Part shown: piece after piece, positions 12,106-25,544 of the stretch
Layout: every line of letters starts with the position of its first letter
Position numbering within the stretch: position 1 is the first letter of the stretch
DNA from: a virus
Virus record (IMG/VR): IMGVR_UViG_3300035698_007203
Location: 1-33,166 of that record
Direction: 5' to 3' (one strand)
Length of the DNA stretch: 33,166 nt
Program-made: the position numbers and the translations under genes
The notes under the pieces: model-generated
Told to the model about the DNA's origin: nothing
Database searches by the model: none
Seen by the model: the letters and a program-made list of their open reading frames with translations, nothing else

Positions 12106-12534
12106 ATGAAAGGGAAAATATTGATAATGGGGTTGCCCGGTTCGGGCAAGTCTACGTTGGCACGTGCGCTATTAGATGTAATTGATACTGCTGTATATTG
12201 GAATGCGGACGAAGTTCGTGCAAATATAAATTCACACCTCGGTTTTTCACTAGAAGATAGAATCAAACAAGCAAAAACCATGAAATGGCTTTCTGATAAA
12301 GTTGTTGAATCTGGTAATATGTGTATAGTGGATTTTGTATGCCCCACACCAGAAACACGCGAAGCTTTTGGGACAGATACTGCATTTGTTATTTGGGTTG
12401 ACAGAATAGATAAGGGTAGGTTTGATGACACAAATAAGTTATTCGTTCCACCAGAAAAATACGACTTCAGGGTCGAAGATAAAACTATCGACCCTGAAGT
12501 CGTAGCAGGACAAATACTACACTATATCTTTTAA
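12106..12534 (+). CDS. P-loop kinase, adenylylsulfate/polynucleotide kinase-like
   Basis: A 142-residue single-domain P-loop protein. Walker A is GLPGSGKST at residues 9-17, followed by LARALLD. A conserved acidic pair appears in WNADEVRAN, and the second strand is NMCIVDFVCPTPETR. This arrangement matches APS-kinase-like and polynucleotide-kinase-like small kinases. The substrate is not predictable. Codons 119-133 hold a perfect 15-bp inverted repeat (12461-12503). The stop lies 5 nt before the 3' end of the convergent RNase P-like RNA. Confidence 0.8.
   Translation: MKGKILIMGLPGSGKSTLARALLDVIDTAVYWNADEVRANINSHLGFSLEDRIKQAKTMKWLSDKVVESGNMCIVDFVCPTPETREAFGTDTAFVIWVDRIDKGRFDDTNKLFVPPEKYDFRVEDKTIDPEVVAGQILHYIF
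12461..12503. repeat. perfect 15-bp inverted repeat inside the kinase gene
   Basis: ACGACTTCAGGGTCG (12461-12475) and CGACCCTGAAGTCGT (12489-12503), loop 13 nt. It is a very stable hairpin on either strand, without a T tract. It could stop transcription or translation, or guide RNA processing, between the convergent units. Confidence 0.75.
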
Positions 12535-12538: not shown

Positions 12539-12738
12539 AAATATCAATCACTAGCCGGGATTCTGTATAACGGTAACCATTCGTCTATTGGCCGCGACCC
12601 GTTCATCATAAGGTGAAACTTCCCTAGAACTGTTTGCGTTGCAAGCCACGTTAGTAGTACAAACGAATTTCTTCTCCTACCAGTTTCGAGCCTGTCCCGA
12701 GCTTCCTCACAATAGTGCGGTTACCCAGATTGATATTT
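12539..12738 (-). ncRNA. rnpB: miniature RNase P RNA (phage-encoded rnpB-like)
   Basis: A 200-nt RNA that folds like bacterial RNase P RNA. P1: AAATATCAATC (12738-12728) pairs over 11 bp with GATTGATATTT (12549-12539). P2: GGTAACC pairs with GGTTACC directly after TAGACGAAT, the same place as E. coli P2. P3 is cut to CAC-TATT-GTG. P4: AGC-T-CGGGA (12703-12695) pairs with TCCCG-GCT (12560-12553), leaving one unpaired U, the universal bulge. CR-I GAGGAAGCTCGGGA and CR-V TAGACGAATG...ACAGAATCCCGGCT match the bacterial consensus (from memory). The specificity domain is almost absent (E. coli is about 377 nt). A T tract follows P1. The RNA begins 9 nt after the vWA stop, so it is probably co-transcribed. 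Likely role: tRNA 5' maturation, perhaps with host RnpA. Confidence 0.9.
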
Positions 12739-12746: not shown

Positions 12747-13475
12747 TTATGTTATGTCTTTAAGGACGTTTGCTGGATTATCAACGACAGCACCAGTGTC
12801 TGATAAATCAGCCGATGCTTGTGCATACATTGCCTTAGCATTTAGTGCGTCGCCTTTACTCATTGTACGAAGCGAACCAACATACGCGGTAGCCGTAGCT
12901 GCGCCTGCTGCAAAGCCGCGAGAATTGTTACCAAAACTAAGTGAGTCTTCTGCGGCAAAACCATATGAACTACCAACCGAAATTGCATCTTGGTTGGAAG
13001 CAAGGAATAAGAATTCCCAACCAGCATCTTTGCGTTCTGTAATTAATTCAAATATTTTATCGCGCGACCATTCTTTGCTGGCATTTTCGCCACCATCTGT
13101 TACAATTACTACGATAGTTTTACCATCGTCAGATTTATATTTTGTGGCGTCGCCCACAACTACACCGATAGCATCCAAAAGTGCCGTATAACCGCGTGGT
13201 CTTAGTGTGTATTCTTCAGCTTCGGTGATATTAACTTGTTCACAAACAGTATTAACAGTATCGTCAAATTCTACGATTGTTAATTTTGCCTCACCAAGTT
13301 CAGCCTGTTCTTTAATGAATGCATTGAGTCCGCCTTGTGCGTCTTCTCTTATGCTACCCATTGAACCCGAACGGTCAACTATACATATGATTTGGTCTGT
13401 GCCTTTGGACTTGCCTGCGGCTTGGATTTTTGCTTTTACTTTATCTTTTACGTCTTGAAATAAATCTTCTGACAT
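12747..13475 (-). CDS. von Willebrand factor A domain protein
   Basis: 242 residues. The MIDAS metal-binding motif DRSGS is at residues 34-38, with IVTDGGENASKEW as the later MIDAS loop. The core covers about residues 25-190. The C-terminus has a Gly/Ala-rich stretch and ends PANVLKDIT. vWA proteins of this type (cytosolic, no signal peptide, TerY-like) bind partner proteins through a divalent metal. Strong Shine-Dalgarno AGGAG; promoter at 13519-13548. The RNase P-like RNA follows immediately. Its partner is unknown. Confidence 0.9.
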   Translation of the reverse strand: MSEDLFQDVKDKVKAKIQAAGKSKGTDQIICIVDRSGSMGSIREDAQGGLNAFIKEQAELGEAKLTIVEFDDTVNTVCEQVNITEAEEYTLRPRGYTALLDAIGVVVGDATKYKSDDGKTIVVIVTDGGENASKEWSRDKIFELITERKDAGWEFLFLASNQDAISVGSSYGFAAEDSLSFGNNSRGFAAGAATATAYVGSLRTMSKGDALNAKAMYAQASADLSDTGAVVDNPANVLKDIT

Positions 13476-13791: not shown

Positions 13792-13868
13792 TGGTGGTCC
13801 TTACTGGAGTCGAACCAGTATCTTACCAATTATGAGTTGGCAGCATTAACCAATTATGCTAAAGGACC
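13792..13868 (-). tRNA. tRNA-Met/Ile2 (anticodon CAT)
   Basis: Acceptor GGTCCTT/AAGGACC, D arm GCATAATTGGTTAATGC, anticodon stem GCCAA/TTGGT with loop CTCATAA, T arm ACTGG-TTCGACT-CCAGT, encoded CCA. It could be elongator Met or the lysidine-modified Ile tRNA. Confidence 0.93.
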
Positions 13869-13877
13869 GAAGACGGT

Positions 13878-13906
13878 ATTATATCAGATTGTAACCTTAA
13901 AGTCAA
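13878..13906 (-). promoter_or_regulatory. sigma70 promoter at the tRNA 5' end, AGGTTAC spacer class
   Basis: TTGACT, 17-nt spacer TTAAGGTTACAATCTGA, TATAAT. Transcription should start about 3 nt before the mature 5' end of tRNA-Met. Confidence 0.85.
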
Positions 13907-13929
13907 GATTTTAACGCGCAAATCTTTCT

Positions 13930-14232
13930 TCAATCATCAGCTTGTAAAACCCCTCTTAGTTCATTAAGACCATATTCACGACACCACGATTCCAACAAAG
14001 CGGTTTTATCGACTTCGTAATATTCTGCGATGTGCGGAAGTACTGCCATCATTCGTGTCATAGCATCTGGGTCTTGGTCACCAAGCAACGCTTCAAATAA
14101 TATAGGATGACTGAATCTATAAAATTCATTAAGGGTTTCTGGTGCCGTCCATGCGAGGTCTGCTTCGGGGTCATTCAGTTTATGTGGATAACCCAATACT
14201 ACATTACAAATTATCAATGGTTCTTTAGTCAT
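13930..14232 (-). CDS. hypothetical protein
   Basis: 100 residues beginning MTKEPLIICNVVLGYPHKL. An upstream in-frame ATG (14301) would lie inside tRNA-Gln, so I chose the ATG after AGAGGAAAAT. The sequence has an acidic, helical C-terminal half (AEYYEVDKTALLESWCREYG). Family unknown. It follows the tRNA-Gln gene. Confidence 0.7.
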   Translation of the reverse strand: MTKEPLIICNVVLGYPHKLNDPEADLAWTAPETLNEFYRFSHPILFEALLGDQDPDAMTRMMAVLPHIAEYYEVDKTALLESWCREYGLNELRGVLQADD

Positions 14233-14272
14233 ATTTTCCTCTTTATCGCATGCTGGAATTGCTTCCTGTTTT

Positions 14273-14347
14273 TGGCTGAGGTATAGGGACTTGAACCCCA
14301 AATGCCAGAATCAAAATCTGGTGTGTTACCAATTACACCATACCCCA
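14273..14347 (-). tRNA. tRNA-Gln (TTG)
   Basis: Acceptor TGGGGTA/TACCTCA, anticodon stem CCAGA/TCTGG with loop TTTTGAT, T arm with TTCAAGT, discriminator G, encoded CCA. Confidence 0.93.
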
Positions 14348-14356
14348 AATGTTTCT

Positions 14357-14947
14357 TTACGTATTCCAGTTCAACTTCGAACGCAAAATTCCTACTACGT
14401 CTTGAAGAACATTCTGCTCAGATTCGTCACCACGAAGTTCAATACCTTCATATACGATGATGTCACGGGCAGCATTAATACATTCACCAAGCCAGTTAGT
14501 TCCTTGCCAGTTCGCAGGGTTTTCGATACCGGGTGTGTTTTCTGCCAATCCAATTCCCCAAATTTTATCATAAGGGCTTGCTTCAACAAAGAACTTCCCT
14601 TTGTTATCTTCGAGGAATGACGCAAATTCTGGATTCTGTGTGAACTTATTATAGTTTCCCAACGTAACATAATCACGAGCGAAAGTTTCCCAAACATACA
14701 TGTCAAAGTTTTTAACTTGGCGACCAAGTTTCTTTTGTTCGCTTGGAGAATCGGTTGCCATGATTTTAGCATACGTTTCATCGTCACCAAATACCTTAGC
14801 TTTTGCTGCCATCATGAACTGTTCGGCGGTGTTGAATGTTTCACCAAATTCTTCAAACGGTGATTCAATCCACTGCGAACAATAACCACCCCAAAAGAAA
14901 TAGTAGTCGGGGTTATCGAACACCGAAATATCTTTATCTAAATCCAT
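14357..14947 (-). CDS. NADAR (YbiA-like) ADP-ribose-related hydrolase
   Basis: 196 residues matching the NADAR/YbiA fold: YFFWGG near the start, FNTAEQFMMAAKAKVFGDDE around residues 40-60, LGRQVKNFDMYVWE, GNYNKFTQN, and the signature EASPYDKIWGIGL near residues 122-134, then NWLGECINAARD. NADAR enzymes act on ADP-ribose-linked or riboflavin-pathway N-glycosidic bonds; some remove ADP-ribose from guanosine and neutralise DarT-type toxins. In a phage, counter-defence is a reasonable inference. It has a strong Shine-Dalgarno (AGAGGAAAA) and lies next to the Acb1-like gene. Confidence 0.88.
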   Translation of the reverse strand: MDLDKDISVFDNPDYYFFWGGYCSQWIESPFEEFGETFNTAEQFMMAAKAKVFGDDETYAKIMATDSPSEQKKLGRQVKNFDMYVWETFARDYVTLGNYNKFTQNPEFASFLEDNKGKFFVEASPYDKIWGIGLAENTPGIENPANWQGTNWLGECINAARDIIVYEGIELRGDESEQNVLQDVVGILRSKLNWNT

Positions 14948-14980
14948 TGTGTTTTCCTCTTTTATTTTTTATAATTTGGG

Positions 14981-15052
14981 TGCCCTCGACAGGATTCGAA
15001 CCTGCATTGTTTAGCTTAGAAGGCCGACCGTTTCCAATTGACTCACAAGGGC
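14981..15052 (-). tRNA. tRNA-Arg (TCT)
   Basis: Acceptor GCCCTTG/CGAGGGC, loop CTTCTAA, T arm GCAGG-TTCGAAT-CCTGT. CCA is not encoded exactly (ACCCA). The anticodon stem has a C-A mismatch. The stop codon of the upstream 64-residue gene lies inside the acceptor start. Confidence 0.88.
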
Positions 15053-15237
15053 AATATTTCTTTCATTTCATTAACGTACAATTCCAATTCTATATCCAAC
15101 TTATTCGTTCGGACGTAGATGTAATCACCGCAACGGTGATATACGGTTGCAATCATATCGTTAGCACGCAAAATATCTTTGTGGACATCTACGCGTGTAA
15201 TTTCTATAGTTTCGCCAATTTTTGGGTATCTATTCAT
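15043..15237 (-). CDS. hypothetical small protein ending in a tRNA
   Basis: 64 residues, starting MNRYPKIGETIEITRVDVH and predicted to be beta-rich (IEITRV, MIATVYH, DYIYVRT, IELELYV), suggesting a small barrel. The last codons and the TGA stop overlap the first 10 nt of tRNA-Arg(TCT), so maturation of the tRNA would cut the mRNA end. A TTGACA-17-TAGTAT promoter lies upstream. Confidence 0.75.
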   Translation of the reverse strand: MNRYPKIGETIEITRVDVHKDILRANDMIATVYHRCGDYIYVRTNKLDIELELYVNEMKEILPL

Positions 15238-15261
15238 AATAATTTAAATTGTGCAAAATTA

Positions 15262-15290
15262 ATACTATCATATGTATATATGTTTGTCAA
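15262..15290 (-). promoter_or_regulatory. sigma70 promoter
   Basis: TTGACA, 17-nt AT-rich spacer, TAGTAT. It serves the 64-residue gene and tRNA-Arg(TCT). Its -35 box overlaps the end of the Acb1-like gene. Confidence 0.8.
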
Positions 15291-15709
15291 TACCAAGTCC
15301 TTCCGATTGTTATATGTTGCTTCCATTTAGATGGAAATCCAAATTCATCACGAATTTGTTTCAAGAGTGGACAATCAACTTCAACAAACCAATAGTGGTC
15401 AGGGCGGTCGCCGCCTGTCGTATCACCAGACTGTCGTACATGGTGCTTATACTTAAATTCAATTTTTTGTCCGTCGTATTTCTTCCAAAGATATTCTAAC
15501 TCTTTGGGTGGTTTTTCGCCACGGATGATAGAAATGTGCGCATCCCAAGAAGGTTGCTTCAGGTCTACCCATAATTCTTTCATAACCCACCAGCGGAAGT
15601 AGCGTGTAATCTCGCGGTCAATTTCTACAACCGCCCACCAGTTCGTTCGCTTTTTCATACCCCCACGGTAGGGGTCATATTTAATAATACCCGTACCAGT
15701 GTGCCACAT
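15287..15709 (-). CDS. acb1: 2H phosphoesterase, Acb1-like anti-CBASS nuclease
   Basis: 140 residues with two catalytic HxS/T motifs: H58-I-S60 (AHISIIRGE) and H132-I-T134 (QHITIGRTWY). The blocks WWAVVEIDREITRYFRWWV, VRQSGDTTGGDRPDHYWF and the length match T4 gp57B, which is Acb1 (recognised from memory). Acb1 hydrolyses the cyclic oligonucleotide messengers of CBASS and so blocks abortive infection. The start is 4 nt after the upstream stop. It lies beside the NADAR gene. A 2H RNA-processing role (2',3'-cyclic phosphate) is the alternative. Confidence 0.88.
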   Translation of the reverse strand: MWHTGTGIIKYDPYRGGMKKRTNWWAVVEIDREITRYFRWWVMKELWVDLKQPSWDAHISIIRGEKPPKELEYLWKKYDGQKIEFKYKHHVRQSGDTTGGDRPDHYWFVEVDCPLLKQIRDEFGFPSKWKQHITIGRTWY

Positions 15710-15713
15710 TATA

Positions 15714-16649
15714 TCATTCCTCGTACCGTTCTTTCCGCCACTTGCGTTGTGCTTTGGCAGATGATAGTGTTAATCGTGCGCATAGTTCCTGTGCATTCGT
15801 TGCGTCGTCTTGCGACCCCATACCCGATGGAACAGTGTATGTTTTTCTTGCATCGTTCATAAAGATATTAAAAAAAGCAAACCGTAGTGCGTTGTTAAGA
15901 ACGCCATCGTATAAATCTGATTTCTCTTCACGCAGGGTTGCTAATATAGCTATAACATCAACAGGTCTACCGACTGCCATCATGCCATGATTCTTATAAC
16001 CAATAAGGTTTGCGGTAACAGTGTCGGCGCTACCATCGTACATCTTATACCGCCTTATACTTTGTCTAATTATTATTTCTTCTTTGTCTAATCCATCTTC
16101 GTCGATTGGTTCAAGAAGTTCATCGAGAGCTTGGGTGAATTCGCTAACATCTATTTTGTCAATCGTAAGATTATTTCTTGAGTCCCAACATGTACCAAAT
16201 TTTGTCTTTGCAACTATGCCGTCATATACATCTTTACGAACGACGATATGTTTAACACTACATAGTTCTGGTCCAAGTTCACTTCTTATGGGATTCTTAA
16301 TATAGAACCGACCTTCATGGTCAAGTCGAAACATGTATTCTATGTCAAAGTCTTCTTTTTTCGCGGGGATGTCATGATATTCATTTTCACCAACTTCCAT
16401 TTCGTGTAAGTTTTCGCAAAGCTTGTCAACTATAATGTTGAGGGCTGGACCTTGGCAATTTTCAACAGAACCATAATCATTGTATGTTCCACTGAATGTT
16501 AGCGGAATTGGCGTCCAACTCGTGTCGGGGTAGCAATAAGAACCTCTGTCATGATTAAAACTGGGTGTCCTTAGTAAGATGACTTCAACTTCTTCATTTT
16601 CAAAGATTGGTAAGTTTGTTATCGCGCATGTATGATTCCAACAGCCCAT
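15714..16649 (-). CDS. conserved phage protein of unknown function
   Basis: 311 residues starting MGCWNHTCAITNLPIFENEEV. The Cys-containing opening (GCWNxTC...NLPI) is typical of a phage and bacterial family without known function. The middle is acidic, and the C-terminal ~90 residues are helical and basic (AKAQRKWRKERYEE). No catalytic motif is obvious. The promoter is at 16680-16708, and it is co-transcribed with the Acb1-like gene 4 nt downstream. Confidence 0.8.
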   Translation of the reverse strand: MGCWNHTCAITNLPIFENEEVEVILLRTPSFNHDRGSYCYPDTSWTPIPLTFSGTYNDYGSVENCQGPALNIIVDKLCENLHEMEVGENEYHDIPAKKEDFDIEYMFRLDHEGRFYIKNPIRSELGPELCSVKHIVVRKDVYDGIVAKTKFGTCWDSRNNLTIDKIDVSEFTQALDELLEPIDEDGLDKEEIIIRQSIRRYKMYDGSADTVTANLIGYKNHGMMAVGRPVDVIAILATLREEKSDLYDGVLNNALRFAFFNIFMNDARKTYTVPSGMGSQDDATNAQELCARLTLSSAKAQRKWRKERYEE

Positions 16650-16679
16650 AATATTCTCTTTTAGGTTAAATACTTGTGA

Positions 16680-16708
16680 AGTGTAACAGACTGTAACCTA
16701 AATGTCAA
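16680..16708 (-). promoter_or_regulatory. sigma70 promoter, AGGTTAC spacer class
   Basis: TTGACA, 17-nt spacer TTTAGGTTACAGTCTGT, TACACT. A second, inverted copy of the motif (TTTAACCTAAAA) lies about 20 nt downstream in the leader, which suggests a paired operator. Confidence 0.85.
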
Positions 16709-16713
16709 GCGGT

Positions 16714-17742
16714 TTAATCAGTTACTAAAAATTGTCCACATGCCGCTTTAACTTCTGAACCAGCAGATATCTGCACCTTGATGTAAGGATGTACTTCCAT
16801 TAATCGTTTGATAATGTTCTTGAAGTTATCACTTTCATGGATGTATGTCGATACTTCGCAAGTATTATAGCGAAGGATACGCAATTCATATTTGTCCAGA
16901 CCATACTGTTTGATTAATGAGATTAGTGCCTCGATTTCTTCTTCGGTATCATTGAACCCATCCATAAACATATGGTGGAAAATAACATTGTGTTTGTTAT
17001 CTTCTGAATATTCCAACAATGCAGGGATAGCTTCATCAAGCGGCAGGGCATTGGGTATCAGGTTATCACGGGATGATTGTATCGCAGAGTGTAGTGAATA
17101 AAATAATCTGAACCTGCTACGACTTGGGTACGTTAATGCCAAGTTACTAAATTCTTTATCACGATGGACGAGGATATCACTGTGTGGATTCAGGGGGTAC
17201 TTTGCCAACTTCTGTTCTAGTTGTTTTAAACGTAAAAACGTTGGCGTCAGGTCTTTGATTTTTGGCATAACAGTGGACATATCCACACCATCTAAACCAA
17301 CAGCATACTCATTTTCCATGATAGTGTCCAACAAACTTTCAGTAACTATCAATGAACGGAAAGTGTTGATAAATGCATCGCCCATACCCATCCAACAAAT
17401 TTTCACAAACTTGTTGCGGATTTCAGGCATACCATTTTTCTGTACAGAATCAAGTCGAGCAATGATTGCTTCTTTGATATTTGCCACAATCCCATCAGCG
17501 TGCAACTTTTGATACTTCATGTCTTTGAGTGTTAAGTAACAAAACTTACACTTCATATAACAGCCAGCAGAATCGGAAACAAATATGCTATATTTGTTGC
17601 GGTCCGTTTCATTTAAGGTAAATGTACCATCATCGTGCATGTGTGTGTCGCAACTGGAAACAGTTTTGATTGCTGTTTCGCTATTATCTGCGTGAATGAA
17701 TTTGGTTACAGTCTGGTCATCGGAAAATAATATGTCTTTCAT
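16714..17742 (-). CDS. radical SAM methyltransferase, RlmN-like
   Basis: 342 residues. The [4Fe-4S] motif is C61-x3-C65-x2-C68 (AGCYMKCKFCYL), RlmN spacing. Later blocks RLFYSLHSA, HHMFMDGFNDTEEEIEAL and the C-terminal VKAACGQF (C335) match RlmN, whose near-terminal Cys forms the methyl-enzyme adduct. RlmN methylates A2503 of 23S rRNA and A37 of some tRNAs. I chose the ATG at 17742: an in-frame ATG at 17772 lies within the promoter. No Shine-Dalgarno is seen; ATG is 8 nt past the -10 box. It lies among tRNA genes of the type RlmN modifies (Gln, Asp, Arg). It is divergent, so the substrate may differ. Confidence 0.85.
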   Translation of the reverse strand: MKDILFSDDQTVTKFIHADNSETAIKTVSSCDTHMHDDGTFTLNETDRNKYSIFVSDSAGCYMKCKFCYLTLKDMKYQKLHADGIVANIKEAIIARLDSVQKNGMPEIRNKFVKICWMGMGDAFINTFRSLIVTESLLDTIMENEYAVGLDGVDMSTVMPKIKDLTPTFLRLKQLEQKLAKYPLNPHSDILVHRDKEFSNLALTYPSRSRFRLFYSLHSAIQSSRDNLIPNALPLDEAIPALLEYSEDNKHNVIFHHMFMDGFNDTEEEIEALISLIKQYGLDKYELRILRYNTCEVSTYIHESDNFKNIIKRLMEVHPYIKVQISAGSEVKAACGQFLVTD

Positions 17743-17750
17743 GGTAGGGC

Positions 17751-17779
17751 ATGCTACCACAAAAATTGACACAAATCAA
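17751..17779 (-). promoter_or_regulatory. sigma70 promoter for near-leaderless rlmN-like mRNA
   Basis: TTGATT, 17-nt spacer, TAGCAT with extended TGG. ATG follows after 8 nt, so the leader is nearly absent. Confidence 0.65.
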
Positions 17780-17785
17780 GCGTTT

Positions 17786-18034
17786 TTAACGTTTTGGGAA
17801 TACTTTATACCAAGTAATGATAGCAACCAGTATTAAGTTCATACCATAATTGGCTATAAGAGGATATTGTCTATCTGGTAAGATGTATACAAAAACGAGG
17901 ATTTCGCCAAGTCCCCACATTAAAAGGAACCAACTCGACAACCCATCCGAATTTTTATCTATGATGCTTTTTAATGCTTGCGGAAACGCACAGACTGCCA
18001 ATAAAATTGACCCTACCCATCCCACATATTCCAT
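17786..18034 (-). CDS. SemiSWEET/PQ-loop membrane transporter
   Basis: 82 residues, three membrane spans, beginning MEYVGWVGSILLAVCAFPQAL. The Pro-Gln pair in span 1 and the segment SDGLSSWFLLMWGLGEILV are hallmarks of SemiSWEET/MtN3 half-transporters, which dimerise to move sugars. The in-frame extension to 18088 would run into tRNA-Gln(CTG), so the ATG after AGGGA was chosen. A metabolic role in the infected cell is plausible but unproven. Confidence 0.85.
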   Translation of the reverse strand: MEYVGWVGSILLAVCAFPQALKSIIDKNSDGLSSWFLLMWGLGEILVFVYILPDRQYPLIANYGMNLILVAIITWYKVFPKR

Positions 18035-18053
18035 ACATTCCCTACTTTTTAAT

Positions 18054-18129
18054 TGGCTGGCGTACTTGGATTTGAACCAAGGTTTCAACGGTCAGAGCGT
18101 CGCGTGATAAACCACTACACTATACACCA
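18054..18129 (-). tRNA. tRNA-Gln (CTG)
   Basis: Acceptor TGGTGTA/TACGCCA, anticodon stem CGACG/CGTTG with loop CTCTGAC, T arm CTTGG-TTCAAAT-CCAAG, discriminator G, encoded CCA. Confidence 0.9.
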
Positions 18130-18139
18130 GTAATTCTTT

Positions 18140-19135
18140 TTATGCAAGGGTAAATACAACAATACCTGCAATAATTAATGCACCTACCAGATACATCCAT
18201 ACCTTGGATTTCTTTGGTTCTTCGGCAACAAGATTTAAAGCCTCAACTGGCGCCGTTTCTGGTTCTTGTAAGCCCGTACCAATATATATTGGTTCCAAAA
18301 ATTTAGTAGCGAACAGGTCACCAGAGCCATTAAGTTCTGGGCGCTGTGTATAACCATATTTCACCATGGAAGCATTCATCTCATCAATAATCGTTTGGTG
18401 GGTCGCGTCGTAATTGTTGTTTTTAAGGCTTTGTGATAGGTAATATGTAGCTGCACCCATATACTTGTTATTAATCCATGCGTCTGCGCTTGTCTGGTGA
18501 GATTGACAGCCACTAATAAGCAACCCTGTGTTGTTGACGTCCCTAGATTGTACAGAACGCGGACGTGGCTGTAGATTAATACCACGTCCTCTATTGGCGA
18601 TGTCGGCTGGCATTGGCAGATAACGGTTGCGGGTTTCAGGAGCTGCGAGTTCGCGAGCATCACCAAGTGGTTGATATTGGTTATCTTGGTCTAACCCTGT
18701 GCCAGAATTACAACAGTCAAGGACAACAGTCAAAGCAACGCCATTTGGTACTTTATTAAAGATACGTTTCAAATCATCATCGCGGATGACTTTATCACGC
18801 CAGTTAAGGTCAACAGGGCAAATAATTTCGTCCAAACCATCAGGTTCAACATCAGCTTCGTAAGTCTGGTTAACCAATTGGGAACCGTGACCACTGTAAT
18901 GAAAATAAAGAACATCGCCTGCTTTGGTATCGGCTACAAGCCATTCTAAGCGTTCCAATATGGCGGCGGTAGTAGCGGAAGCATCAGTAAGCATACGACG
19001 CTGTGTGGCGTCTGTGAACCCGTAGTGTTCGGTTAGAATGTCTGCCATGAGATTGACATCATTGACGCAACCTTGTAATGGATATGTTGTGCCGGGATAG
19101 TTGATACCGACTAAAAGTGCTCTGCGTGTTGACAT
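18140..19135 (-). CDS. metacaspase (peptidase C14) with C-terminal membrane anchor
   Basis: 331 residues. The caspase fold begins MSTRRALLVGINYPG. The catalytic dyad is H83 (HYSGHGSQ) and C142 (LDCCNSG), with acidic S1-pocket residues such as D98/D102, typical of Arg/Lys-specific metacaspases. Residues ~155-285 include ISGCQSHQTSADAW. The last 20 residues (MYLVGALIIAGIVVFTLA) are a membrane anchor placing the protease on the cytosolic face. Shine-Dalgarno AAGGAG; late octamer upstream. It may act late on host or virion proteins. Target unknown. Confidence 0.9.
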   Translation of the reverse strand: MSTRRALLVGINYPGTTYPLQGCVNDVNLMADILTEHYGFTDATQRRMLTDASATTAAILERLEWLVADTKAGDVLYFHYSGHGSQLVNQTYEADVEPDGLDEIICPVDLNWRDKVIRDDDLKRIFNKVPNGVALTVVLDCCNSGTGLDQDNQYQPLGDARELAAPETRNRYLPMPADIANRGRGINLQPRPRSVQSRDVNNTGLLISGCQSHQTSADAWINNKYMGAATYYLSQSLKNNNYDATHQTIIDEMNASMVKYGYTQRPELNGSGDLFATKFLEPIYIGTGLQEPETAPVEALNLVAEEPKKSKVWMYLVGALIIAGIVVFTLA

Positions 19136-19159
19136 AATATTCTCCTTGTTATATGGGAA

Positions 19160-19167
19160 TATTTATC
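19160..19167 (-). promoter_or_regulatory. T4-type late promoter octamer GATAAATA
   Basis: GATAAATA lies 24 nt upstream of the metacaspase ATG, with AAGGAG between. An AATTAGGTTAC motif is adjacent. Confidence 0.55.
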
Positions 19168-19182
19168 AATTAGGTTACAGAA

Positions 19183-19290
19183 TCAGGAAAAGTAGCAATT
19201 GGACAAAAGGTAGCCAATGAAAACAATCATTGCGAATGCCACCAAATAACCTAAAATATTTCCTGCATCTTCTTTGTCTTGTTTGTTCAT
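19183..19290 (-). CDS. 35-residue membrane peptide
   Basis: A very short frame beginning MNKQDKEDAG, then a hydrophobic helix (ILGYLVAFAMIVFIGYLL) and the end SNCYFS. The Shine-Dalgarno GGAAGGGGGG is among the strongest in the window, 6 nt before ATG. It lies directly upstream of the metacaspase gene. One membrane span is predicted. Function is unknown; it could be a holin-like or regulatory peptide, or partner the anchored protease. Confidence 0.7.
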   Translation of the reverse strand: MNKQDKEDAGNILGYLVAFAMIVFIGYLLSNCYFS

Positions 19291-19329
19291 TGTAAACCCC
19301 CCTTCCCTGTGGTATCATATTATTTATGA

Positions 19330-19551
19330 TTAGGTTATGATTTCTGACAGCCGTTTTTTATGATGGGGTGCTTTTATACACACAATCCAACAATTATGGT
19401 GGGCGCGGAAATATATTGATTGGGTGGATTTGCCTATGGCAAGGCATATTTCTTCAAGTGGTTCCTTAATGGTACAGAAGATGTACCGGTTTCCACTAAT
19501 TCCTACTTTTGTTGTGGGGATATGACTCACTATTTTATTCACGCGTGTCAT
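19330..19551 (-). CDS. hypothetical small protein
   Basis: Up to 73 residues. The first ATG lies in the dyad at 19516-19557; a GTG at 19542 with AGGGG upstream is the better start (MNKIVSHIPTTKV, 70 residues). It contains RAHHNCWIVCIKAPHHKK, with His and Cys that may bind a metal. No family recognised. It follows the tRNA-like gene, with which it may be co-transcribed. Confidence 0.45.
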   Translation of the reverse strand: MTRVNKIVSHIPTTKVGISGNRYIFCTIKEPLEEICLAIGKSTQSIYFRAHHNCWIVCIKAPHHKKRLSEIIT

Positions 19552-19557
19552 ATCCCC
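19516..19557. repeat. 11-bp perfect inverted repeat at a tRNA-like 3' end
   Basis: GGGGATATGAC (19516-19526) and GTCATATCCCC (19547-19557), loop 20 nt. On the minus strand the 5' arm shares the GGGG of the tRNA-like acceptor, so acceptor pairing and this hairpin would compete. Confidence 0.65.
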
Positions 19558-19623
19558 TATCAGGATTCAAACCTAAACTACCCATCAATCGGCTGGTACG
19601 GAGGTCAGTTACACTATAGGGGC
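19553..19623 (-). tRNA. tRNA-like gene, anticodon unclear
   Basis: Acceptor CCCCTA/TAGGGG, T arm TTAGG-TTTGAAT-CCTGA, but no encoded CCA. The D arm and the anticodon arm (TACCA/TGG-G-TA around GCCGATTGA) are irregular. It is either degenerate or an odd tRNA. Confidence 0.5.
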
Positions 19624-19630
19624 AATTATT

Positions 19631-19704
19631 TGGCAGGCTGACAGGGAATCGAACCCCAGTCAAGACGTTTGGAATGTCTCATGTTACCACTACACCATCA
19701 GCCC
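19631..19704 (-). tRNA. tRNA-Trp (CCA)
   Basis: Acceptor GGGCTGA/TCAGCCT, stem AGACA/CGTCT (one mismatch), loop TTCCAAA, T arm TTCGATT, discriminator G, encoded CCA. A shifted reading would give Gly(TCC), but the stem then fails. Confidence 0.8.
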
Positions 19705-19710
19705 ATTGTT

Positions 19711-19797
19711 TGGCGACCCGTGAGGGATTCGAACCCCCAATGTCCTTTCGGACGCCGGTTTTGGAGACCGGTGCAATACCAGTTATGCGAACGAGCC
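19711..19797 (-). tRNA. tRNA with Trp anticodon (CCA) and a long variable arm
   Basis: Acceptor GGCTCGT/ACGGGTC, anticodon stem CCGGT/ACCGG, loop CTCCAAA, then an extra arm GTCC-GAAA-GGAC, T arm GGGGG-TTCGAAT-CCCTC, encoded CCA. A type II body with a Trp anticodon is unusual. Confidence 0.85.
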
Positions 19798-19804
19798 ATT
19801 GTTC

Positions 19805-20266
19805 TTATTCCCACCAATGTGGGGTTGTTCTATTCTTCCAAGCGGCAATTGCACGCTTGTCATTCATATAGTATTTACGATATGAATCTACGGCGTTGGC
19901 GGACTTATAGTCATCTGGCATTGCTAACCTAAAATCTGTCAGCCCAATGTCATCAATGTTCGGTTGCGGTAACCCACATACCACATCATAAGATTTATGA
20001 TTGACGGTCTTGGCATATCTGAAGCAATATTCTTCGTTCAATGCGGATGTCAAATCGCGTAGCCAAATCCAGTTGGATAAAGATTCCCTGACCCAAATAG
20101 AACAGGGGTGGTTTTGATGGGTCAAACGATAGCCAGCGTCAATGCCAGATAGTCTAACAGCCCCACTGAGTAATTGTGCTGATTCGAGTATCATTTTAAC
20201 GACGTGCTTATCGACATGATATTCGGCACACAATTGGATATTGGTATCTAAGACAAATATATTCAT
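19805..20266 (-). CDS. conserved phage/bacterial protein, unnamed family
   Basis: 153 residues starting MNIFVLDTNIQLCAEYHVDK. Signature text includes HVVKMILESAQLL, THQNHPCSIWVRES, FRLAMPDDYKS and SYRKYYMNDK near the C-terminus. This family is common in phages and bacteria without proven function; conserved His, Asp and Glu residues could suit a metal or nucleic-acid enzyme. The ATG lies exactly 6 nt past the -10 box at 20273, so the mRNA should be leaderless; a frame extension to 20284 precedes the transcription start. Confidence 0.85.
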   Translation of the reverse strand: MNIFVLDTNIQLCAEYHVDKHVVKMILESAQLLSGAVRLSGIDAGYRLTHQNHPCSIWVRESLSNWIWLRDLTSALNEEYCFRYAKTVNHKSYDVVCGLPQPNIDDIGLTDFRLAMPDDYKSANAVDSYRKYYMNDKRAIAAWKNRTTPHWWE

Positions 20267-20272
20267 TGTGGT

Positions 20273-20301
20273 AGTATACCACAATTAGGTTAAAGTGTCA
20301 A
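20273..20301 (-). promoter_or_regulatory. sigma70 promoter giving a leaderless mRNA
   Basis: TTGACA, 17-nt spacer CTTTAACCTAATTGTGG, TATACT, then ACCACA and ATG. The spacer holds the TTAACCTAA motif in the opposite orientation to other promoters. Confidence 0.85.
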
Positions 20302-20307
20302 TATTAT

Positions 20308-20403
20308 TGGCAGAGAGTATGGGATTTGAACCCATGGTGCCAAGTTTTTGCCTGACACACTTCGTTTCCAACGAAGCACAATAAGCCACTCTGTCAACTC
20401 TCT
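20308..20403 (-). tRNA. tRNA-Ser (GGA)
   Basis: Acceptor AGAGAGT/ACTCTCT, anticodon stem CTTCG/CGAAG with loop TTGGAAA, long variable arm as expected for Ser, T arm ATGGG-TTCAAAT-CCCAT, encoded CCA. Confidence 0.95.
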
Positions 20404-20410
20404 ATAATTT

Positions 20411-21163
20411 TTACATTCCTAATAGTTCCGCCTTGTTGTAGGCGGTGGAAATTCTTTCTTCACTTACTTTGAAATAATCGTCATCTTGTTCCATTCCAAT
20501 AAATTGCCTTCCTGTGTTTGCGGCGGCAACTCCTGTCGAGCCTGACCCCATTGTGTTGTCTAAAACAACATCACCTTCGTTAGAATAGGTTCTAATTAAG
20601 TATTCGAGTAGCTTAACAGGTTTCTGTGTAGGATGCAATGCTAATTTTTGCTTATCTGTGGGAAACTGCAACACCGACCGTGGATATCGTTCCGTAGAAC
20701 CACCACCAGAAATACCAACCTGTGTTTTGCCATATATTTCGCCATCGTCTTGATGCTTGGTATAGCTATTCACTGGCTTATGTCCTGTAGTCATTTGTGG
20801 GTTATACGTCGGTAGGCTATCATAAAAGACCATGATATTTTCATGAGCTTTCATAGGCATCTTCTTAGCGTTAAGGTGTCCAGTTGCCGTTGACTTTTCC
20901 CAAATCCATTCATATCGCAAATCTTTTAAGTTACTATTCCCCAAAGTTATATTAAATGGAATTTGCGCAAATAAAAGAATCGCAGCGTTGTATTTGGTTA
21001 CCCATGCGTATTGCGACCACAATTTATCTAAGTCTATCACGGAATCCCATTTACAATTAGTGGTGCCGAACGGCAAATCGCAGACAACTAAGTCTACAAT
21101 CCCATCTTCAAGATGGTGCATAAGTTCGAGGCAGTCGCCGTGGAGAAGTGTGTGGTTACTCAT
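20411..21163 (-). CDS. DNA adenine/cytosine-N4 methyltransferase
   Basis: 250 residues, beta-class. The catalytic motif IV is DLPFGTTNCKWD near residues 29-40 (DPPY-like), and motif I, LDNTMGSGSTG, is near residue 206, followed by GRQFIGMEQDDDYF. The arrangement, catalytic motif first, is as in phage Dam/CcrM-like enzymes. It probably protects phage DNA from restriction; the target site is unknown. The ATG lies 6 nt past a TATACT box, with no Shine-Dalgarno, so a leaderless mRNA is expected. Confidence 0.92.
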   Translation of the reverse strand: MSNHTLLHGDCLELMHHLEDGIVDLVVCDLPFGTTNCKWDSVIDLDKLWSQYAWVTKYNAAILLFAQIPFNITLGNSNLKDLRYEWIWEKSTATGHLNAKKMPMKAHENIMVFYDSLPTYNPQMTTGHKPVNSYTKHQDDGEIYGKTQVGISGGGSTERYPRSVLQFPTDKQKLALHPTQKPVKLLEYLIRTYSNEGDVVLDNTMGSGSTGVAAANTGRQFIGMEQDDDYFKVSEERISTAYNKAELLGM

Positions 21164-21169
21164 TATGGC

Positions 21170-21198
21170 AGTATATCAAGGATTTCATATACTGTCAA
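21170..21198 (-). promoter_or_regulatory. sigma70 promoter giving a leaderless mRNA
   Basis: TTGACA, 17-nt spacer, TATACT, GCCATA, ATG (methyltransferase start at 21163). Confidence 0.85.
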
Positions 21199-21204
21199 GG
21201 ATTT

Positions 21205-21306
21205 TGGCGGAAGAAGGGGGATTCGAACCCCCACGCCAGCTTTTTACACTGACCGACTGTTTTCAAGACAGCTGCCGGTACCCAGAATTTTTCGGCTTAC
21301 TCTTCC
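21205..21306 (-). tRNA. tRNA-Ser (TGA)
   Basis: Acceptor GGAAGAG/TTCTTCC, enlarged D loop inside GCCG/CGGC, anticodon loop CTTGAAA, long variable arm, T arm GGGGG-TTCGAAT-CCCCC, encoded CCA. Confidence 0.93.
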
Positions 21307-21312
21307 AATAAT

Positions 21313-21579
21313 TTAATCGTTCGGACGTGTTTTCACAACTTCCGTAAGTTCATCTTGATTGATATACCAAAATGGACGTTTTCCATCAGGATATTGCATC
21401 TTACCAAAATCACCCGGATGGGTAGCGAGGTGTGCAACAACCCTATAAATGTTTGTCATGTTTGAATCATCCCATGCATCGTCGCGGCGGGCACGCATGA
21501 ATATAACAAGGGGGAATAGAATCAACCCCAAGAAGAATGACAAAACACCAACAACAATTGCAATTATTACAACATTCAT
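21313..21579 (-). CDS. small membrane-anchored protein
   Basis: 88 residues. The N-terminal ~28 (VVIIAIVVGVLSFFLGLILF) form one membrane helix; the rest is a soluble tail with RRDDAWDD and YPDGKRPFWYINQDEL. The start overlaps the previous stop as TAATG, so translation is coupled with the 21579 gene. Function unknown. Confidence 0.75.
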   Translation of the reverse strand: MNVVIIAIVVGVLSFFLGLILFPLVIFMRARRDDAWDDSNMTNIYRVVAHLATHPGDFGKMQYPDGKRPFWYINQDELTEVVKTRPND

Positions 21580-21950
21580 TATTGGTCCATCATCTTAACG
21601 ATGCGCTGTAATGAACCGCGAATCCTATTAAGGTTACCCATTACGCGGGACTTGTTTCTAGTCCTCGAAGAACTATCGGGCATCTTGTTTAGGATAACCA
21701 TGGCTTTCTTTACTGCCACCATTTGTTTAACAGCATCTTCAAGTGCTGATGACACGTCGTCATCAAGCGTAAAGATAGCATCATCTGCCATACCCGGTTG
21801 TGGCATGTGTCTACCTGTAACGTTGGCTGGCATCCCAATTTCTTCGTTTATTTGTATAAACAAGGCATTGATACTTTCTGTCAGTTCAGCATAATAGCTT
21901 TCAAATTCTTCATCAACGAAGTTTATATTCTTAACTTGTTCTAATAACAT
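21579..21950 (-). CDS. hypothetical helical protein
   Basis: 123 residues starting MLLEQVKNINFVDEEFESYY. Predicted helical throughout, with a basic C-terminal end (RTRNKSRVMGNLNRIRG). TTGGAGAAA precedes the ATG, and a perfect late octamer TATAAATA lies 25 nt upstream. It is coupled to the membrane protein gene downstream. No family recognised. Confidence 0.75.
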   Translation of the reverse strand: MLLEQVKNINFVDEEFESYYAELTESINALFIQINEEIGMPANVTGRHMPQPGMADDAIFTLDDDVSSALEDAVKQMVAVKKAMVILNKMPDSSSRTRNKSRVMGNLNRIRGSLQRIVKMMDQ

Positions 21951-21974
21951 TAATGTTTCTCCAAATATGTCATG

Positions 21975-21982
21975 TATTTATA
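21975..21982 (-). promoter_or_regulatory. T4-type late promoter octamer TATAAATA
   Basis: An exact match to the T4 late consensus, upstream of the 21950 gene with a Shine-Dalgarno in between. Confidence 0.75.
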
Positions 21983-22002
21983 CAAAATATATCATGGAAT
22001 GC

Positions 22003-22028
22003 AAAAAGCCCACAGAAGTGGGCTTTTA
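22003..22028 (-). terminator. intrinsic terminator
   Basis: AAAAGCCCAC, loop (AGAA on the plus strand), GTGGGCTTTT. A 10-bp stem with T tract ends the 22050 gene; it is also bidirectional in form. Confidence 0.88.
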
Positions 22029-22049
22029 ATTTTCAAATACTAAAATGTA

Positions 22050-22397
22050 TTAAAATGTTATGTTAACTGTATCAGTAACGGGGGTGCCACTAATTGTAAC
22101 AGTTGCTGTTATTACGTGTGCTGTTGCTGGTGAACCACCACCTGTTGTTAGGACTGCTGCAACATTTGCGCCTGTTCCAAGTGCGCCATCTACGGACGAT
22201 GTCCATACGATAGTTGATGAAACATCACCAAGTAAATCGTCAAGTGCCTTACCCCTAAGAGTTACATTACCTGCAAGTGGCGAACCGCTTGCTACAACCA
22301 CGAAACCGCCTACTGGTGAAAGAATTTCAACGGTGTGTATCAACCCGCCTGCGCCGTAACGTCCTTTTTTTGCTTTCATACGAGGTGATAGACCCAT
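22050..22397 (-). CDS. Ig-like virion surface protein (putative)
   Basis: 115 residues. After a basic, Gly-rich start (MGLSPRMKAKKGRYGAGG) comes a single beta-sandwich of the bacterial Ig-like type: FVVVASGSPLAGNVTLRGKA, STIVWTSSVDG, AHVITATVTISG. Such domains decorate phage capsids and tails (Hoc-like). A late promoter of exact TATAAATA sequence upstream supports a structural role. It is followed by a terminator, so it is a single-gene late unit. Confidence 0.75.
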   Translation of the reverse strand: MGLSPRMKAKKGRYGAGGLIHTVEILSPVGGFVVVASGSPLAGNVTLRGKALDDLLGDVSSTIVWTSSVDGALGTGANVAAVLTTGGGSPATAHVITATVTISGTPVTDTVNITF

Positions 22398-22425
22398 ATT
22401 ATTTCTCCTTAAATTTTAACTTGTT

Positions 22426-22468
22426 AATTGTAATAGTATTTATACTTTTAGTAAAAACTATTACAATT
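22426..22468 (-). promoter_or_regulatory. late promoter TATAAATA in the loop of a 12-bp hairpin
   Basis: AATTGTAATAGT (22426-22437) and ACTATTACAATT (22457-22468) are perfectly complementary. TATAAATA (22437-22444, minus) begins in the loop and ends at the stem. The Shine-Dalgarno AAGGAG lies outside the stem, unlike the other cases. Confidence 0.7.
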
Positions 22469-22472
22469 TTAT

Positions 22473-22552
22473 TGGCACCCTCGACAGGAGTTGAACCTGC
22501 ATGGTTCCAGTTAACCTTTCTACTGGTTCGAAGCCAGAGGGTTTACAAGGGC
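22473..22552 (-). tRNA. tRNA-Arg (TCG) with abnormal arm order
   Basis: Acceptor GCCCTTG/CGAGGGT, T arm GCAGG-TTCAACT-CCTGT, encoded CCA. The hairpin CTGG-CTTCGAA-CCAG (anticodon TCG) lies only 8 nt after the acceptor, where the D arm should be. GGTT-AACTGG-AACC, which looks like a D arm, comes after it. Compare tRNA-Arg(ACG) at 28505. Confidence 0.75.
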
Positions 22553-22558
22553 ATTATT

Positions 22559-22647
22559 TGGAGGAAGGCAGTGGATTCGAACCACACCCGGCAATACCGA
22601 GCAATCTGATTAGCAATCAGTTTCTACGCCTTGTAGATTTACCTTCC
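22559..22647 (-). tRNA. tRNA-Ser (GCT)
   Basis: Acceptor GGAAGGT/GCCTTCC, anticodon stem CTGA/TCAG with loop TTGCTAA, variable arm GCTCGGTATTGCCGGG, T arm GTGG-TTCGAAT-CCAC, encoded CCA. Confidence 0.92.
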
Positions 22648-22664
22648 ATTGAATCAATATTTTC

Positions 22665-22844
22665 TTAATTTTTTTCTTTGTTGACTGCTCGCCGTTCTTC
22701 GAAGAGTTCATCGTAAAAGGGCAAATGACTTTTCCATAGATATATAATCGCCGGGTCTGTTTTTCCTTTTTCTTTTGCAAACGACCTAATCGAAGAATGG
22801 TTACTAGCAATAAACTCAGGAAGGACAATTAGCCTCTCTGTCAC
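22665..22844 (-). CDS. hypothetical small protein, GTG start
   Basis: 59 residues from GTG (GGAAGC just before), starting MTERLIVLPEFIASNHSS, with a charged helical end (YDELFEERRAVNKEKN). The frame is open upstream, but that part is the tRNA-Gly gene read as protein. Composition looks like a real protein; family unknown. Confidence 0.55.
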   Translation of the reverse strand: MTERLIVLPEFIASNHSSIRSFAKEKGKTDPAIIYLWKSHLPFYDELFEERRAVNKEKN

Positions 22845-22860
22845 GCTTCCAATATTTGTT

Positions 22861-22937
22861 TGGAGCAGGGGATGGGATTCGAACCCACGGCATCTTCGTT
22901 GGCAACGAAGTGCTCTACCAGACTGAGCTACACCTGC
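22861..22937 (-). tRNA. tRNA-Gly (GCC)
   Basis: Acceptor GCAGGTG/CCCCTGC (one mismatch), D arm GCTCAGTCTGGTAGAGC, anticodon stem CTTCG/CGAAG with loop TTGCCAA, T arm GTGGG-TTCGAAT-CCCAT, encoded CCA. Confidence 0.95.
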
Positions 22938-22945
22938 ATATCTTT

Positions 22946-22953
22946 TATTTATC
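22946..22953 (-). promoter_or_regulatory. late octamer GATAAATA before tRNA-Gly
   Basis: GATAAATA ends 8 nt before the mature tRNA 5' end and overlaps the stop of the upstream gene. It could give late expression of tRNA-Gly. Confidence 0.4.
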
Positions 22954-23338
22954 ACAACGACAATTTCATATAAGCAAATAGTTCCTTATGGCGGTTTTTT
23001 AGTACCCGCATAAGAAAAATATACGCGTATGCTTCACCTTTTCGGAACGCTTTGGTTTTTGGGTCGTACCCATATCCTGCGTATTGTATATTAATACGAA
23101 TAGCATTCCACTCATCAAAAAGTCCATGTAAGTCAACAAGAGATGTGCATGCACCAAGGTCTGAAATGGCTTTTCGAATGACTGTCATTGCATGAATAGA
23201 ATCAAGTTCGTTGGCTGTCAGTGTGCCCAAAACAGCATTGTCTTGATATTTGTCATAAGGACAGGACAATTGAAAGTTTAGCTTAATAGCTTCGAGTTTC
23301 AAATCCTGCATAAAATCATCGACTAAAGTAGTATCCAT
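22952..23338 (-). CDS. hypothetical protein
   Basis: 128 residues beginning MDTTLVDDFMQDLKLEAIKL, coupled as TAATG to the 23338 gene upstream. Helical character, with a central WNAIRINIQYAGYGYDPKTK and a C-terminal FLMRVLKNRHKELFAYMKL. No family recognised. Confidence 0.72.
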   Translation of the reverse strand: MDTTLVDDFMQDLKLEAIKLNFQLSCPYDKYQDNAVLGTLTANELDSIHAMTVIRKAISDLGACTSLVDLHGLFDEWNAIRINIQYAGYGYDPKTKAFRKGEAYAYIFLMRVLKNRHKELFAYMKLSL

Positions 23339-23754
23339 TACTTTCTACTTTTTAGATATTCTTTCTCTTCGGGTGTAAGGTCAACAACGAGCACTGGTAC
23401 TTCGGTTATTCCCGCTTCTTCGGCTGCTAACGCGCGGTGTAATCCCTCTTGGGATAACCGACCTTTGGAATAATCCAATGTCAAAATTGGAAACTTTGTT
23501 CCACCTTTCATCAACTCTGCATACTTACTTATCGTAACTGGGTCTCTATGACTTAATATATCTTCGCGAGTAACGTTCTTTGCTTTCATTACCGCGCTGA
23601 TATATTCGGCTGGTGGCATGTTCACTAACTTAGATTGTAACCCCTTTTGTTGTGCAAAGTAATCTGGGTTCTTCATCATGTCGTCGTAAAATGGCATTTC
23701 TGTTGTGTCGGCATGGAACGAACCGTTTTCGTTTAATATTTCATATATTTTCAT
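23338..23754 (-). CDS. ParB/sulfiredoxin-like small protein (tentative)
   Basis: 138 residues from MKIYEILNENG (the frame before it runs into tRNA-Leu). The segment FPILTLDYSKGRLSQEGLHRALAAEEAGITEVPVLVV has the GRLSQEGxHRxxAAxxxG pattern of ParB/Srx-type nuclease-like domains, which bind nucleotide at the G-x-HR stretch. The MKIYEIL start is common in T4-like proteins of the virion assembly region. Late octamer TATAAATA ends 5 nt before the ATG; a leaderless late mRNA is expected. Confidence 0.75.
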   Translation of the reverse strand: MKIYEILNENGSFHADTTEMPFYDDMMKNPDYFAQQKGLQSKLVNMPPAEYISAVMKAKNVTREDILSHRDPVTISKYAELMKGGTKFPILTLDYSKGRLSQEGLHRALAAEEAGITEVPVLVVDLTPEEKEYLKSRK

Positions 23755-23759
23755 ATACC

Positions 23760-23767
23760 TATTTATA
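23760..23767 (-). promoter_or_regulatory. late promoter TATAAATA giving a leaderless mRNA
   Basis: TATAAATA, then GGTAT, then ATG at 23754. Same 5-nt spacing as at 5310 and 5835. Confidence 0.65.
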
Positions 23768-23781
23768 TTAAATTTGATATT

Positions 23782-23863
23782 TGGTACCCAACCCCGGAGT
23801 CGAACCGGGAAACATATCACTACGTTTTGAGCGTAGCCGCTTTACCAAATTGCGTAGTTGGGC
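23782..23863 (-). tRNA. tRNA-Leu (CAA)
   Basis: Acceptor GCCCAAC/GTTGGGT, anticodon stem CTACG/CGTAG with loop CTCAAAA, variable region 10 nt, T arm CCCGG-TTCGACT-CCGGG, discriminator A, encoded CCA. Confidence 0.92.
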
Positions 23864-23866
23864 ATG

Positions 23867-23892
23867 AAAAAGGCACCCGAAGATGCCTTTTT
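23867..23892 (-). terminator. intrinsic terminator
   Basis: AAAAAGGCA, 8-nt loop, TGCCTTTTT. It ends the SPFH lipoprotein operon just before tRNA-Leu. Confidence 0.85.
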
Positions 23893-23915
23893 GATTTTCT
23901 TAATTTGATTAAGGC

Positions 23916-24710: not shown

Positions 24711-24725
24711 TGTATTACCTATGTG

Positions 24726-24893
24726 TTATGCGACTTCACCAAGATATACGAGTATCGAAATGATACCCGACAATATAGCGGCAAAGACTAATTTGCCTGC
24801 TACCTTAACGTCAGACTTAGTAATTTCTTTATAACCAAAAACCAACGCAGACATTATTGTAAACAGGATGAGGAATAATGCAAGTAAGCGCAT
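24726..24893 (-). CDS. small two-span membrane protein
   Basis: 55 residues starting MRLLALFLILFTIMSALVFGY, with a second span AGKLVFAAILSGIISILVYL. The start overlaps the previous stop as TAATG. It sits just before the SPFH lipoprotein gene, hinting at a shared membrane role. No family recognised. Confidence 0.75.
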   Translation of the reverse strand: MRLLALFLILFTIMSALVFGYKEITKSDVKVAGKLVFAAILSGIISILVYLGEVA

Positions 24894-25099: not shown

Positions 25100-25164
25100 T
25101 TCTTAATCCTTTGTTAATTTACATCAATATCCTATCAGAAAGTAACATCCTTGTCAAGTTGTTT

Positions 25165-25485: not shown

Positions 25486-25487
25486 GT

Positions 25488-25524: not shown

Positions 25525-25544
25525 AGCTATGATAAATTTTCATA

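Follow-up and report, generated by a model that had tools for sequence, protein, structure and literature searches.

The DNA analysed here, called the window throughout, is a 33,166-base record of a bacterial virus that carries genes for a T4-type major capsid protein Gp23 (30249-31301), a ribonucleotide reductase and a DnaB-like helicase, the last having its nearest named relatives in jumbo phages such as Atu_ph07. On the minus strand, at 12539-12738 with its 5' end at 12738, lies a predicted miniature type A-like RNase P RNA of 200 nt (the mini RNA). The gene for a VWA-like protein (12747-13475, minus strand) ends 8 nt upstream of it, and at the related locus L008 a mini RNA also follows the gene of a VWA protein, which is 70% identical to that of the window. 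About 35 nt 3' of the mini RNA, a perfect 17-bp hairpin followed by U5 (12459-12505, minus strand; fold z -6.4) probably terminates the tRNA/RNase P transcript of that strand; it is only partly conserved in L008, and on the plus strand the same positions are coding sequence, the 3' end of a convergent kinase gene.

Upstream of the mini RNA and on its strand, ARAGORN identified 21 tRNA genes (13792-32781, minus strand), 19 of which encode the CCA end, and the nearest lies about 1 kb from the mini RNA. The original prediction had placed the RNA at the border of a region with about 28 tRNA genes; that number was not reached, and all of the genes lie on one side of the RNA. Neighbouring tRNAs of the same anticodon are predicted on the minus strand at 19631/19711 (Trp), 28235/28342 (Asp) and 30093/30171 (Phe). 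The same strand encodes a caspase-family (Peptidase_C14) protein (18140-19135; E 2.9e-34), here in a T4-like phage genome, and a NADAR-domain protein (14357-14947; E 1.7e-41) that may target ADP-ribosylated molecules or serve in counter-defence.

Architecture of the mini RNA

From 5' to 3', the RNA is composed of P1, P2, P3, GAGGAA (CR-I), P4, P5, the 5' strand of P6, a hairpin region of about 35 nt and CR-IV, followed by P15 with the 3' strand of P6 in its loop, GGGUCGCGGC, AGACGAA and then the 3' strand of P2, ACAGAA (CR-V) and the 3' strands of P4 and P1. This is the helix order of type A RNase P RNA, including the P2/P4 crossing and the P6 pseudoknot. All coordinates that follow are on the minus strand. 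The 11 bp of P1 are formed by AAAUAUCAAUC (12728-12738) and GAUUGAUAUUU (12539-12549), and P2 joins GGUAACCG (12718-12725) to UGGUUACC (12572-12579), the latter directly after AGACGAA; P2 reads GGUAACC/GGUUACC and reaches 8 bp when the next pair is counted. As read from the sequence, P3 (12708-12717) is a 3-bp hairpin with a tetraloop, CAC-UAUU-GUG, and relatives have CUG-GCAA-CAG, CAG-GCAA-CUG, CUC-UACG-GAG or CAC-UACG-GUG at the same position. CR-I and the 5' strand of P4 (GAGGAAGCUCGGGA, 12695-12708; bulged U at 12700) are matched by CR-V and the 3' strand (ACAGAAUCCCGGCU, 12553-12566), giving a P4 of AGC-U-CGGGA/UCCCG-GCU. The original prediction had described an 11-bp P1, P2 in the E. coli position, P4 with one unpaired U, CR-I and CR-V, a nearly lost specificity (S) domain, a three-pair stub for P3 and no P18, and every one of these features was recovered in the window. 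Missing from it were P5 (CAGGC, 12690-12694, with GCUUG, 12642-12646) and the P6 pseudoknot (GAAACU, 12682-12687, with AGUUUC, 12615-12620, within the P15 loop).

We did not find CR-II or CR-III of the S domain in the window; their place is taken by a small hairpin of about 35 nt, GUAGGAG-hairpin-CGUUUGUACUAC (12647-12681). Short relatives such as L014, L017 and L010 conserve an internal-loop pattern, GURGGAG-[hairpin]-CGNNNNYACYAC, which is possibly a new contact with substrate or protein. CR-IV (CAACGCAAACAG, 12630-12641) is assigned through the relatives, in which it aligns to CR-IV (GCAA...) of RF00010. The P15 stem, GUUC/GAAC, and its loop occupy 12601-12630, and the adjacent GGGUCGCGGC (12591-12600) contains GGU, a triplet present near P15 in nearly all relatives. 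In bacterial RNase P RNA, GGU pairs with the tRNA 3' RCCA; by analogy, the GGU of the window would do the same, a role that is inferred. J15/2 is AGACGAA (12580-12586), compared with AGAUGAA in E. coli-type RNAs, and relatives have a similar stretch of the AGAYNAAUG type. By itself, the folding energy of the mini RNA is uninformative (z -1.2).

Bacterial type A RNase P RNA (RF00010, E. coli M1) shares with the mini RNA P1-P6, P15, CR-I, CR-IV and CR-V, the helix order, the bulged U of P4, the GGU near P15 and the P6 pseudoknot, which is absent from type B RNase P RNA. There are also differences: type A RNAs are usually 340-420 nt long, whereas the mini RNA has about 200 nt, with a small hairpin instead of P7-P14 and CR-II/III, a P3 of only 3 bp and neither P16, P17 nor P18. 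In addition, mini RNAs, unlike type A RNAs, are encoded by phages within tRNA arrays, and that of the window has no RF00010 match.

Relatives, homology and covariation

Relatives were sought in IMG/VR contigs with a gapped pattern of CR-I/P4 and CR-V/P4 in which pairing was not forced, at gaps of 116-146, 146-176 and 176-206 nt; a shorter-core pattern with a gap of 86-116 nt found nothing. Once chance hits and duplicates were removed, 41 distinct RNAs remained, counting that of the window, those of the first two scans and that of the cultured phage A3Wally, and about 21 more from the third scan brought the total to about 62 distinct viral RNAs, with two further cases in bacterial assemblies. 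L008 was also reached independently, through its neighbouring VWA protein, and has the mini RNA in the same place. Four isolated Microbacterium foliorum phages carry the mini RNA at 91-100% identity, and in A3Wally, Zooman and Big4 it lies in an unannotated gap between tRNA genes. Pattern hits at L011/L015/L029, L025, L034, L042, L045, L049, L052/L053 and L140 were dropped as chance, as were all six hits of the exact pattern TAGACGAATGGTTACC in viral contigs. Searches with blastn of single RNAs against named phages mostly gave no match.

No RNase P family of Rfam matched the window, either at the gathering threshold or at E<=10, and its weak Rfam matches (miRNA and U7, on a nearby hairpin) were spurious. 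A covariance model, R2, was built from 18 relatives, excluding the window and its sister L008; its sole match in the 33 kb is at 12741-12537 on the minus strand (126.3 bits, E 3.9e-39). R1, an earlier model of the relatives in which the P4/P2 crossing pairs were mis-encoded, gives the window 113.6 bits and is cited only for which loci match; the E-values of both models are only rough. There was no convincing R1 match in the tRNA-carrying or jumbo phages T4, KVP40, RaK2, Munch, XacN1, Atu_ph07, G, Phosso or a Vibrio phage, the weak ones in Phosso and G being rejected as chance. R2 scores 73.6 bits in A3Wally, 73.6 in L064 and 46.3 in L019, and in a Flavobacteriales assembly it also recognises the full-size RNase P RNA (61.4 bits, E 2e-17); a marginal match in L042 (18 bits) was taken as chance. 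Conversely, RF00010 covers the A3Wally RNA end to end (positions 1-367; 64.8 bits, E 6.8e-20) and matches L010 (52.5 bits, E 1e-15), and class A scores best of the RNase P clan in both. The Infernal comparison with Rfam that was proposed along with the original prediction thus fails on the window itself but succeeds on relatives that R2 recognises. Altogether, 16 of the 31 phage records tested had an RF00010 match at the position of the mini RNA (E about 1e-14 to 8.4e-39), comprising 9 of the first 11 (E 2.6e-14 to 8.4e-39) and 7 of a further 20 (E 3.7e-14 to 7.7e-27). Because R2, built on phage relatives, finds the window and a cellular RNA, and RF00010 finds the relatives, the link runs both ways. 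The RF00010 scores of the relatives (43-85 bits) remain below the gathering score of 100 bits, which only L019 exceeds (118.5 bits), and phage RNase P RNAs have been overlooked because such scores fall under the standard annotation cut-off.

Covariation was assessed in a MAFFT alignment of the 18 relatives, in which P4 was encoded as a helix that crosses P2. Paired cells amounted to 90.3%, against 66.2% after shuffling, and two-sided changes to 162 cells against 53; when pairing partners were slid by 1-3 columns, only 29-43% remained paired. All six P2 pairs are formed in each of the 18 relatives, with 2-5 pair types per pair. In a permutation helix test that is independent of strand alignment (L019, L038 and L047 left out), none of 5000 permutations reached the observed mean best helix for P1, P2, the outer part of P4, P5, P6 or P15. 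Relatedness inflates such permutation tests; the size of the gaps (in P6, for instance, 6.74 for true partners and 4.23 for permuted ones, sd 0.20) and the 26 distinct P6 helices among 38 RNAs leave little doubt that the covariation is real. In P4, seven of the eight pairs are formed in all 41 RNAs, which fall into 18 P4 sequence classes, and the bulge is U in 41 of 41 even though the search pattern permitted C, the letter found in four of seven chance hits. P1, P2 and P4 thus covary in related phages, a check that had been set for the original prediction, and its statement that the helices differ from those of E. coli yet keep their pairing is met in P4, the most conserved part of RNase P. 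Against the E. coli P4, whose letters also occur in L064, four of the eight pairs of the window are exchanged two-sidedly (67-359, 68-358, 71-356 and 74-353), whereas the bulged U and its neighbours are kept.

The relatives form a series in which the core, measured from GAGGAA through the last base of P4, is 151 to 232 nt long. By eye, some long members (L127, L130, L132, L137 and L149) appear to have S-domain stretches like CR-II/CR-III; middle members (L036, L037, L055 and L058) have P18-like hairpins between GGC and AGA, and the RNA of the window belongs to the shortest group. P4 is canonical in L050, L063 and L064, intermediate in, for example, L010, and widely exchanged in the window, L008, L012, L014 and L016.

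tRNA genes, cellular genomes and the protein partner

ARAGORN detected 560 tRNA genes in 37 of the 41 loci, every one of them (560/560) on the strand of the mini RNA, and none in the remaining four. A tRNA lies within 100 nt, often within 10 nt, of 27 of the 41 mini RNAs, and in many relatives one begins within about 10 nt of the mini RNA 3' end. Eight records were picked for having few or no tRNAs near the mini RNA, and seven of them have tRNAs elsewhere. Record G005 had no detectable tRNA and G011 only one; one or none was found in the L055 and L036 records, both of which may be fragments. The share of tRNAs with an encoded CCA varies sharply between phages, from 0 of 11 in L048 to 31 of 32 in L017, and the GGU near P15 is present in both. 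CUA-anticodon tRNAs, labelled Pyl by ARAGORN, occur at L031 (4321-4395) and L044 (1747-1821) and are perhaps suppressors that read UAG.

The identity of the window RNA as a phage-encoded miniature RNase P RNA is near certain, because the R2 match, the links to RF00010 and a full-size bacterial RNA, the covariation including P6 and the co-orientation with tRNA genes all point to it; the original prediction, which had arrived at this reading, is thereby supported. More broadly, our data favour, with some reserve, a picture in which many tRNA-rich phages of diverse bacteria encode an RNase P RNA, in a reduction series that leads to a ribozyme without an S domain, with a compensated re-working of P4, acting alone or as a hybrid with host RnpA and tuned to the phage tRNAs.

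The short pattern was also scanned against 84,980 bacterial and archaeal species, one genome per species. Only two of the 32 matches are mini RNAs: L102, a window-like mini RNA with tRNAs on a small contig of a Flavobacteriales assembly, and L096, on a contig of Achromobacter anxifer in which an 8-kb stretch carries 32 tRNA genes in one orientation. The others were either chance hits or ordinary RNase P RNA in a damaged or masked copy. Since the only two cellular cases come from assemblies that each hold a full-size RNase P RNA elsewhere, the mini form looks like a trait of mobile elements and not a cellular form. AlkB-like reading frames were seen by eye between the tRNA genes of L096.

RnpA (PF00825) was not found in 28 records (16 and 12), including the complete genomes of A3Wally, Zooman and Big4; the same search detected RnpA in 10 of 14 control genomes, most of the records are fragments and a very diverged RnpA could escape. 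HARP-type PIN_5 (PF08745) was absent from all 15 records searched, which therefore show no such protein-only RNase P. RnpA proteins are interchangeable between bacteria (PMC4919922), so host RnpA would be the likely partner of the mini RNA. That none of the phage records examined yielded RnpA is consistent with a mini RNA that matures tRNAs with the host protein.

Proposed function and alternatives

We consider it probable that the mini RNA arose from a type A RNase P RNA that lost its S domain, and that it serves the phage as a ribozyme subunit, combining with host RnpA to mature phage tRNAs. The original prediction had, on good grounds, inferred tRNA maturation too, perhaps with host RnpA; the activity is inferred, without expression or cleavage data. 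According to this model, the mini RNA would be excised from a long tRNA transcript, bind host RnpA and cut phage pre-tRNAs at their 5' ends, and contacts of P6 and P15 would stabilise the core, a task of the S domain in cells. Where a tRNA starts within about 10 nt of the mini RNA 3' end, processing of that tRNA by RNase P would at the same time release the mini RNA at its own 3' end. The phage would probably gain a sufficient, or better-adapted, supply of RNase P for its dozens of pre-tRNAs while the host is dying. Several points count against the model: the window is too diverged for RF00010, some E. coli-type P4 letters are changed, with compensation, the L055 and L036 records (perhaps fragments) yielded one tRNA or none, and RnpA may have escaped detection.

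Precedents exist for such a reduced RNA. The type T (P) RNase P RNA of the archaeon Pyrobaculum is small and consists of the C domain only (PMID 21135215, as described in PMC4919922), and P6 has been modelled there too (PMC5839562); it resembles the mini RNA in its degenerate or lost S domain and in lacking P18, but it works with archaeal proteins, and type T gave no match on the window at E<=10. E. coli RNase P RNA stripped of its S domain retains cleavage activity in the presence or absence of protein; a P6-like contact helps, and P18 is dispensable in such C-domain constructs (PMC5839562). The phage RNAs have kept and lost just these parts; they are natural and further reduced, whereas the constructs are engineered.

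A core retained without its S domain, in phages that encode no RnpA and often disable host machinery, might instead be an RNase P RNA mimic, one that sequesters host RnpA or pre-tRNA and blocks the host enzyme without cleavage. We regard this as unlikely, given that a decoy would not need the catalytic bulged U in 41 of 41 RNAs or CR-I and CR-V under strict compensation, and that an inhibitor of tRNA maturation placed in phage tRNA arrays would damage the phage's own tRNAs. It is similarly improbable, perhaps slightly more so, that the main substrates are host tRNAs, tmRNA or phage mRNA; the record without tRNA, the one with a single tRNA and the tmRNA and GOLLD genes near the mini RNA in some relatives would fit such substrates, but the same-strand tRNAs in 37 of the 41 first-set loci, and the presence of tRNAs in seven of the eight records that looked tRNA-poor, argue for phage tRNAs. 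Loss of the S domain and scores under the Rfam cut-offs could also mean that a host RNase P gene was captured and is now decaying without function, an explanation we hold to be very improbable: covariation in every tested helix, and core motifs that stay invariant over about 64 diverse loci, indicate continued selection. Finally, the lack of any Rfam RNase P match for the window alone might suggest a structured RNA of other origin whose likeness to RNase P is accidental, yet the transitive links to RF00010 and a cellular RNase P RNA, together with the type A P6 pseudoknot, leaves this with almost no credibility.

RNase P, which trims tRNAs, is among the few ribozymes thought to be common to nearly all cells. 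A viral RNase P RNA subunit of the kind proposed here would extend RNase P beyond cells and would account for continued tRNA maturation in phages that have dozens of tRNA genes. The series also represents natural bacterial-type RNase P RNAs without an S domain, so that the minimal ribozyme, long known through artificial deletions, can be studied in evolved forms, and the changes in P4 separate the letters of the active-site helix that count as bases from those that count only through their pairing. The isolated Microbacterium phages make a phage RNase P RNA testable now. We found no earlier report of one in the open-licence literature; priority is not certain because subscription journals and most preprints lay outside the search. 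RNase P is not mentioned in a paper on huge phages (PMC7162821) or in a 2026 survey of phage tRNA genes (PMC13015707), nor phages in a paper on rnpB annotation (PMC7191817), and mycobacterial surveys, in the parts available, report phage-derived tmRNA and GOLLD and no phage RNase P RNA (PMC9569102, PMC6582537). tmRNA and GOLLD share the same phage tRNA clusters as the mini RNA (L010, L046 and L050); both are already in Rfam, whereas phage RNase P RNA is not listed among such RNAs in the literature that could be searched. At L046, a GOLLD RNA, a tmRNA, the RNase P RNA and 18 tRNAs lie within 14 kb.
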